A DNA stretch of 64,000 bases from positions 1 through 64,000 of the forward strand of contig NZ_JAGQCH010000001.1 of NCBI RefSeq assembly GCF_024346055.1, in the 5' to 3' direction. The position numbers were made by a program, and so were the translations under genes. This document shows positions 23,842 to 25,841 of this stretch, one piece after another; within the stretch, counting starts at the first letter, position 1; every line of letters starts with the position of its first letter. Below the pieces are notes generated by a model. It searched no databases, was not told the origin of the DNA, and was given only the letters and a program-made list of their open reading frames with translations. This DNA is from Cyanobium sp. Cruz CV13-4-11 (GTDB lineage Bacteria; Cyanobacteriota; Cyanobacteriia; PCC-6307; Cyanobiaceae).

Positions 23842-23909
23842 GCTCGGCGATGGGCGGCGATCCAGGTGTGGCCAGCGACAGTGGCCCCAGGTCTGCCCGT
23901 TGATCCGCC

Positions 23910-24383
23910 GTGTCCCCCTTCCCGCTGCTGGTGATCGTCCACGCCTTGGCCGCCACGGTGTGGACCGGCGGCCACCTGGTGCTCGATCTGGGCGTGCTGC
24001 CGAGGGCCCTGCGGGAGCAGAGCGCTGAACCCATCCGTGACTTCGAGGCGGTCTTCGAGCCCCTTGGCCTCACGGCCCTTGCCCTGCAGGTGATCACCGG
24101 CCTCTGGATGGGTTCGATCCTGCTGCCTGGCTTCCATGGGCTGTTCGATCCAGCGAATCCGATCGGTGTGCTTTTGGGCACCAAGCTGCTGTTGCTTGTC
24201 GCCACCGCCGCCTTGGCCCTGCACGCCCGGCTGCGGCTGATCCCCAACCTCACGGACGCCAACCTCAGTGGCCTGGCCTGGCACATCCGTGGCATCACCG
24301 CCGTGGCGATCGCCTTCGTGGTGGTGGGTGCCCTGATCCGTCTGGGTGGCGTGCCGGGCCTCGGTACCGGTCCAGGCGGCTGA
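23910..24383 (+). CDS. CopD-like integral membrane protein
   Basis: 157 aa from GTG 23910 with four predicted helices: LLVIVHALAATVWTGGHLVL, LGLTALALQVITGLWMGSIL, GVLLGTKLLLLVATAALALH and [20 protein letters not shown]. The conserved His residues in the first and last helices (VHALAATVWTGGHL, AWHIRG) are as in CopD-domain proteins, where they bind heme or metal. Its 3' end overlaps the convergent corA-like gene by 89 bp, so the two transcripts are antisense to each other there. Confidence 0.72.
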   Translation: MSPFPLLVIVHALAATVWTGGHLVLDLGVLPRALREQSAEPIRDFEAVFEPLGLTALALQVITGLWMGSILLPGFHGLFDPANPIGVLLGTKLLLLVATAALALHARLRLIPNLTDANLSGLAWHIRGITAVAIAFVVVGALIRLGGVPGLGTGPGG

Positions 24384-25419
24384 GAAAGACATAACTGGCA
24401 AAGCCGATCACCACCATGGCGAGCATGAAGGCCGGATAGGAGACACGCCAGTTGTCTGGGCCGGTGATCATCGTCCACTCGGACATGCCGCCGATGCCCG
24501 CCAGCAGGGTCAGCGGCATGAAGATTGTCGTGATCAGGGTCAAACGCCGGACCGTGGCATTGGTGTCGTTGGCGGCTTTGGCCATCTGGTTGTTGAGCAT
24601 CGACAGATACATCTCCATCAGGCTGGTGACGATATCCCGATAGGACTCCGTGACCTCGTAGAAACGCACCAGATGGTCATAGATGTCACGATAGTGGTAG
24701 ATCGCCTTCTCTGAAATCAGAGGAAAATCGCCTCGACAGATTTTGCTGAGGATCTCACGCTCATGAAACAGGCTCTTGCGCAACCGCAACAGGTAGCGCC
24801 GGAACCTGATCAGTTCGCCGGGCTTGAAACTGGCCGGATCGGCAATCAGGGCTTCCTCCAGGTCATCCAGCTCATCCTCGAGGGCCTCAATGGCCACAAA
24901 CTTCTGATCGACGATGTGGTCGAGGATCAGTTGCATGAGATGGGAGGGGCCCTGGCGGACCTCGTCGATGCCCCGTTCGACAAGACGTTGAACCCCGTCG
25001 AGGTAGGAGCGATGTCTGGAATCCAGATGACTGATGCTGATCAGAAATCGCTTTCCGAGGAACAGGTTGATTTCACCCACCTCCAGGACGCCGTGATCGT
25101 ACTGAAATGTGTTGAATAGGATGAAGGTGTTGTCTGGAAAATCGTCCACCTTGGGGATCTGGTTGTCATCGAAGCAATCCTCGATGGCCAACGAGTGCAG
25201 GCCAAGCAGGCCGACAAGGCCTGCCAGATCTTCCCTGGTGGCCTCGCGGTACTGCAGCCAGGCAAAACCTTCCGCCTCGGCCGCCGTCACGGCCTCCACT
25301 GCCGTGGCCACGCGCTTCGCAGGGCCATCGCGGCCGATGACATGGAAGCTGGCGACAGACACGCGCTCTTGAGCTGATGGCCGTGGCCAGCGTAGGCAGG
25401 GCTGAAGCGGCGTTCCCAA
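24295..25419 (-). CDS. corA: CorA-like divalent-cation channel with GMS in place of GMN
   Basis: 374 aa as drawn; GTG 25362 ([12 protein letters not shown]) is a likelier start. The CorA layout is clear: a cytoplasmic alpha/beta domain, a long helix with [14 protein letters not shown], and two C-terminal helices ([19 protein letters not shown] and [19 protein letters not shown]). The selectivity signature, normally YGMNF, reads [11 protein letters not shown]. The Asn-to-Ser change is at the residue that forms the ion filter, so selectivity may differ from standard Mg/Co uptake. The C-terminus carries an extra basic tail read from the overlap with the CopD gene. Confidence 0.85.
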
Positions 25420-25518
25420 GCCAAGGTGGCCTGCAGGCCATCTTGGCCCTCAATCGTCAAATCGTCTCACGGCAAAGCCATTGGTTTTGTCAGGTTGGAT
25501 GTTCTGCTTCGTGACCGG

Positions 25519-25713
25519 ATGCCCCACCACGTCGATCGCCCCACCAAGACCTGTCCGGTCTGCGGACGACCGTTCCAGTGGCGCAGGAAATGGAAGCAGG
25601 TCTGGGAGGAGGTGCGCTACTGCTCCGAACGCTGCCGGCGCAACCGCAACCGGGCGCGCCCGGATTCCTCCGAGGCCCCTCAGATCTCGAACGCCGCCAC
25701 CAGCGCCGCATGA
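25519..25713 (+). CDS. DUF2256 zinc-ribbon-like protein
   Basis: 64 aa from ATG 25519. [20 protein letters not shown] followed by [14 protein letters not shown] gives two CxxC/CxxxC pairs around a Trp-rich centre, the whole DUF2256 domain. A small zinc-binding protein of unknown role. The upstream extension to 25426 does not look coding. Divergent from corA. Confidence 0.85.
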
Positions 25714-25841
25714 GGTGGATGGCTTTTATTGGACAGACTGGCCCGACGACGTACTAACTGAGGCTCCCTCTCGACTGGTTGTTGATTGTCAGGGAGGCGG
25801 TGGCCATGGTTTAGCTCGATAGCCGTTCCCAGCGCTAGGTG

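Follow-up and report, generated by a model that had tools for sequence, protein, structure and literature searches.

We found that a CorA-like gene of Cyanobium sp. Cruz CV13-4-11 encodes GMS in place of the GMN selectivity motif, and that the clade sharing this substitution is a real, conserved CorA pore variant on an otherwise normal CorA body. The gene lies at positions 24295 to (probably) 25362 on the reverse strand of the window, i.e. the whole 64,000-nucleotide stretch of DNA analyzed here. We propose, with about even odds of being right, that such proteins are Mg-gated divalent-cation channels with an alternative filter composed of Ser and Glu rings.

The first-pass annotation had described this open reading frame as CorA-like with GMS for GMN, and this description was confirmed. 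The window protein matched the Pfam CorA family (PF01544) over residues 50–346 with 171.9 bits (E = 2.4e-50; cut-off 27), and the codons GGC ATG TCC (Gly-Met-Ser) at 24481–24489 on the reverse strand occupy the position of the GMN motif. The frame, spanning 24295–25419, is open as far upstream as a TTG at 25419. According to the genus alignment and the codon positions, the GTG at 25362 is more likely to be the start, because the conserved sequence begins there; from this position on, the alignment shows MSDASF in 2 of 13 genus orthologues. The protein scored 173 bits against the corA equivalog of NCBIfam (TIGR00383), under the cut-off of 200.75, which counts against the channel function proposed here. 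Its score for the ZntB equivalog (NF007092) was 54 bits, compared with a cut-off of 292. Three CorA genes were found in this genome, including the GMS gene. The two others (L001 and L002) also belong to PF01544, and the C14 copy is 29% identical to the window protein over the matched part; however, both encode GVYGMNF followed by MPEL and exceed the TIGR00383 cut-off (317.7 and 213.5 bits). Purifying selection acts on the GMS gene: pN/pS averages 0.182 across the 78 pairwise comparisons of the 13 genus orthologues and is lower in the first transmembrane helix (TM1) and loop (0.128) than in the N-terminal domain (0.216). The pore helix and loop are among the most constrained parts of the protein.

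The predicted structure has the CorA fold, with an alpha/beta cytosolic domain, a long stalk helix and two C-terminal transmembrane helices, as seen in the AlphaFold2 model and by Foldseek. The model reached a pLDDT of 84.1 and a pTM of 0.70; it is weak at the loop and the second transmembrane helix (TM2), where pLDDT is 67–70 in part, and two of the five models averaged just 64–66. The 50 PDB matches listed by Foldseek were all CorA (E = 6.7e-22 to 1e-18). The CorA of Thermotoga maritima (TmCorA; PDB 3jcf, 4i0u and others) was the best PDB match by sequence (E = 6e-43) and also by predicted fold, with TM-scores of 0.68–0.76 among the 50 matches listed.

To map residues, we aligned 26 members of the GMS clade with TmCorA. 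The sensor residues D89, D179, D253 and D256 are kept in all 26, and E88 and D175 in 25. In the inner pore, N288, L294, T295, T299 and M302 are kept in every member and T305 in 24, the other two having Ser; N288, T295 and T299 have been described as the polar track (PMC3629940). Two further positions differ from TmCorA: M291 is Val in 24 of 26, and V293, beside the hydrophobic gate, is Arg in all. The outer loop, on the other hand, is rebuilt. Between TM1 and TM2, where the GxN (GMN) signature is expected, the window protein reads GMS, with IGGMSEW at the place of the CorA sequence IYGMNF; the GGMSEW stretch is encoded at 24475–24492 on the reverse strand, as placed by codon positions and alignments. 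Y311 is replaced by Gly in 25 of 26 members, and the following changes are common to all 26: N314 to Ser, F315 to Glu, E316 to Trp or Phe, P319 to Gly, and loss of E320. From the MPEL motif, only M318 is kept (26/26). Consequently, the loop Y-G-M-N-F...MPEL has become G-G-M-S-E-(W/F)-(S/T)-M-(M/I)-T in most members, and the window protein, with G-G-M-S-E-W, is not of the aromatic-GMN-F and MPEL type. The Asn-to-Ser replacement noted in the first-pass annotation is therefore real, but as a description it is incomplete, since the whole loop has been replaced (Y311, N314, F315, E316 and all of MPEL except M). According to PMC3629940, the Asn ring and the Gly carbonyls form the selection site and E316 is auxiliary. 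Because the TmCorA sensor and inner-pore residues are kept and the outer loop is rebuilt, the gate, polar track and sensor of these proteins look standard, whereas the filter does not. The window protein also differs from TmCorA by seven extra residues in the stalk helix (approximately placed at 24562–24582, reverse strand). This insert is also present in three of the four aligned actinobacterial GMN proteins and is thus not specific to the GMS type.

We then examined whether Ser at the filter is a clade feature. Scanning genome contigs with the 13 genus orthologues as queries yielded 61 loci. All 37 loci with at least 52% identity carry Ser (36 with GMSE and one, L096, with VMSE), and the other 24, with 27–31% identity, all carry GMN; these counts rest on peptides read by eye and not on an automatic motif tally, whose columns are shifted by loop insertions in some GMN proteins. 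The suggestion that the replacement characterizes a clade is accordingly upheld. A recent point mutation or a sequencing error was excluded as its source because Ser is invariant in the 13 genus orthologues and in 21 diverse members. L096 (5989–7062) reads GVMSEW, having lost even the initial Gly of the motif but retained MSEW. A profile built from 21 members and scored against the open reading frames of the collected loci gave 39 rows with at least 487 bits, all with Ser, compared with at most 183 bits for GMN proteins; a half-length piece of a split gene scored 240 bits and the GMS protein L158 just 94.

Seventeen of the 37 Ser-bearing loci are cyanobacterial. The other 20 derive from metagenome-assembled genomes (MAGs), several on contigs of 100–650 kb, and represent Deltaproteobacteria or Syntrophobacterial groups, Chloroflexi, Anaerolineales, Ignavibacteriales, Aminicenantes, Acidobacteriota, Elusimicrobia, Spirochaetes, Planctomycetota and Verrucomicrobia. 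GMS-type loops probably occur in Pseudomonadota as well. Within the genus, an orthologue with at least 68% identity is present in 15 of the 42 genomes, counting that of the window. Two cyanobacterial copies are irregular: in a Cyanobium MAG (L048/L100), the gene is broken across two reading frames, reflecting either gene loss or an assembly error; in an uncultured cyanobacterium MAG (L045/L069), it has lost its 3' end, the sequence changing part-way through TM2 near the end of the contig.

In searches by phylum, profile hits with E ≤ 1e-60 were obtained in two genomes among the 244 from the window's phylum, each belonging to the window's own genus, and in 2 of 297 in the phylum of a Smithella MAG, both already known. 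Motif searches at the DNA level gave hits in 2 of 301 genomes in the phylum of the Chloroflexi MAG (one being the centre genome itself), 1 of 296 in that of the Ignavibacteriales MAG (the centre genome itself) and 33 of 288 in that of the Verrucomicrobia MAG (centre counted); the reversed motif pattern gave zero hits in these three phyla. Thirty of the 33 Verrucomicrobia-phylum hits read as CorA-like with GMSE. As for the remaining three, L166 (GMWEL) was dropped, having no open reading frame of at least 150 codons that contains the motif, and two genomes (G620 and G681) gave no locus. No close relatives were found on plasmids: judged by identity, the 52 plasmid records with a match to the window protein were all below 60% (at most 31% among the 40 matches listed), and 13 records matched L158 at no more than 31%. 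GMS CorA is rare and patchy among the genomes sampled, and it represents an old and sparsely distributed protein family. In a tree of the cytosolic domain, eight cyanobacterial members form one clade within the family (support 100/100); this monophyly suggests one transfer of the gene into picocyanobacteria. It has been reported that one corA cluster is unique to freshwater/brackish strains of subcluster 5.2 (PMC9361551), a cluster that may correspond to the GMS gene.

A second family with nearly the same loop was found in Verrucomicrobiota. L158 and 29 Verrucomicrobiota loci (L163–L165 and L167–L192) encode GGMSEF(S/T)MMT, placed at the same distance from TM2 as in the window's family. However, their cytosolic backbone is very different and most closely resembles that of proteins with FSMN (L155–L157). 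Most of the TmCorA sensor residues are not kept in this second family, and N288, T295 and T299 are not kept in most rows, although the alignment is uncertain here; therefore, a mechanism proposed for the window protein is not simply transferable to it. We constructed a tree from the cytosolic part only (67 rows, 18 of them from the second GMS family). The second family clusters with the FSMN proteins in a single clade (100/100), whose branch measures 5.13 changes per column; the window's clade (98/96) stands apart. Grouping both GMS sets without the FSMN proteins was rejected (p-AU 2.9e-60), partly because the FSMN rows nest within the second family. The best tree does contain a weakly supported grouping (47/29) of both sets that includes the FSMN rows, and caution is required because long branches meet between these groups. 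The loop could have reached both backbones by convergence, by module exchange, or by one origin followed by loss in the FSMN proteins. A tentative reading, which we consider somewhat less probable than its negation, is that GMSE(W/F)(S/T)MMT is a second self-consistent CorA filter class, formed by neighbouring rings of Ser and Glu and having its own ion preference, placed on two widely separated backbones by convergence or pore-module exchange.

The surroundings of the gene were compared next. No conserved neighbour hinting at a substrate was found; 30 flanking proteins contained no recurring family, and neighbours differ among lineages. Two settings recur among the 17 cyanobacterial loci, namely a DUF2256 gene beside corA (10/17) and a SulP permease downstream (4/17). 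In the window, the DUF2256 gene (25426–25713; 71.4 bits) is divergent and lies upstream of corA. In L077 (6959–8890), a SulP/STAS permease gene of the same strand immediately follows the GMS gene, with similar matches in L074–L076; in L077 and L074, the longest open frame of the permease overlaps the 3' end of the GMS gene. In the Smithella MAG (L081, 7071–9615), the GMS gene is followed by genes for a PRC-barrel/MgtE_N/CBS protein and an NRAMP-type transporter.

On its other side, the window's gene converges with a CopD-like membrane gene (23910–24383, forward strand; PF05425, 43.7 bits). The two genes overlap tail to tail by 89 bp (24295–24383), as had been noted, but the further proposal that this antisense overlap ties the expression of the two genes was not supported; the overlap was seen in this genome only. 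Compared with the sister locus L037, approximately 164 bp are missing from the window (a manual count from the alignment), including the CopD stop, the spacer and the corA stop. This deletion took both stops, and therefore the frames run into each other; the C-terminal residues with which both proteins end in this genome are a by-product of it. In sister loci, the two genes are 15, 129 or 736 bp apart, or CopD lies at a greater distance, is present in fragments or was not found. Among 31 further cyanobacterial loci scanned by pattern (several representing one gene twice), none had an overlapping convergent CopD-like open reading frame, and tblastn against 17 cyanobacterial loci found CopD in five, never over corA. 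The overlap is thus a private deletion of the window's genome among the relatives examined, and sense–antisense coupling was rejected. No promoter- or terminator-like sites were found at 23850–25800, where shuffled sequences gave means of 0.4 and 1.2, a comparison that carries little information. Matches to the CopD-like gene occur in 25 of the 42 genus genomes, sometimes as pieces only (e.g. G004, G008 and G023), and the gene seems dispensable.

Homology, the constant Ser and Glu of the aligned members, the conservation of the sensor and inner pore, and the distribution are direct observations, and from them we propose how a GMS CorA might work. The protein would be a CorA-fold membrane channel, presumably homopentameric. 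At intersubunit sites equivalent to D89/D253, E88 and D175 of TmCorA, cytosolic Mg2+ would bind and keep it shut; when internal Mg2+ drops, the stalk helices would relax and divalent cations would enter. The ions would encounter a ring formed by Ser hydroxyls and Gly carbonyls, with an adjoining Glu ring (G-M-S-E), in place of the Asn ring, E316 and MPEL, and beyond this filter the usual polar track formed by the equivalents of N288, T295, T299 and T305. As a probable effect of the altered filter, divalent cations would be selected or conducted differently; Mg2+ would remain the gating ligand and probably be one of the permeant ions. A changed ion selectivity is a plausible hypothesis.

The genomic context bears on the permeant ion. 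In 9 of 20 carrier genomes, the GMS protein was the sole CorA detected; MgtE was not found in six of these nine, and MgtA above the cut-off was not found in three of these six, although most of these genomes are MAGs and such absences are weak evidence. A role in Mg2+ uptake fits because carriers without another CorA, MgtE and MgtA exist, and these absences lean towards Mg2+ as a permeant ion. Counting against the proposal, replacement of GMN by AAA in Mrs2 was reported to reduce growth (PMC11919701), and the plant variants AMN and GIN, in which Asn is kept, to complement weakly or not at all (PMC9948656). The GVN, GIN, AMN and AIN filters described in plant MRS2/MGT and other CorA/MRS2-type proteins likewise have a changed motif but keep the Asn that the window protein loses (PMC9276622, PMC6345045, PMC9948656). 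Among the open-access papers listed in literature searches, none dealt with a GMS motif of CorA, and no characterized GMS protein was found.

A less likely alternative is that these proteins are ordinary Mg2+/Co2+ channels in which the Ser-Glu loop is functionally equal to GMN and the preference is unchanged. The kept sensor and inner-pore residues and the nine carriers with a sole detected CorA would agree with this. Moreover, a comparison of three family members, each carrying GMN or a GxN variant, concluded that they recognize similar divalent cations (PMC6972854), and thus a changed motif need not mean a changed preference. However, N314, E316 and MPEL, which have been tied to ion capture, are changed together in 26 of 26 members, and the window's genome retains two GMN CorAs and one MgtE hit beside the GMS gene, which suggests a separate job. 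We regard as improbable a channel or transporter for another substrate (e.g. Mn2+, Ni2+, Zn2+ or a monovalent ion), or an efflux device, in which Mg2+ is a regulator only. The loss of the canonical filter residues and the NRAMP-type transporter and MgtE_N/CBS protein next to L081 point in this direction; however, that neighbourhood occurs in one locus only, with no family recurring among the flanking proteins, and the Mg-sensor residues are still in place. A non-conducting Mg2+ sensor, or a subunit modifying a GMN CorA, would explain a lost filter beside kept sensor residues and coexisting GMN paralogues, but it is very improbable given the strong constraint on the pore helix and loop relative to the N-terminal domain and the nine carrier genomes (mostly MAGs) that show no partner CorA.

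The preferred reading, a Mg-gated divalent-cation channel with Ser and Glu rings, concerns a motif that has been called 'universally conserved' (PMC3629940), with an Asn called 'omnipresent' in the CorA/Mrs2 family (PMC11919701). A natural clade that lacks this Asn, with the gating residues in place, would provide a direct test of the role of the Asn ring. If GMS CorA passes Mg2+, the Asn ring would not be essential; if it passes another ion, it would represent a naturally re-tuned filter.
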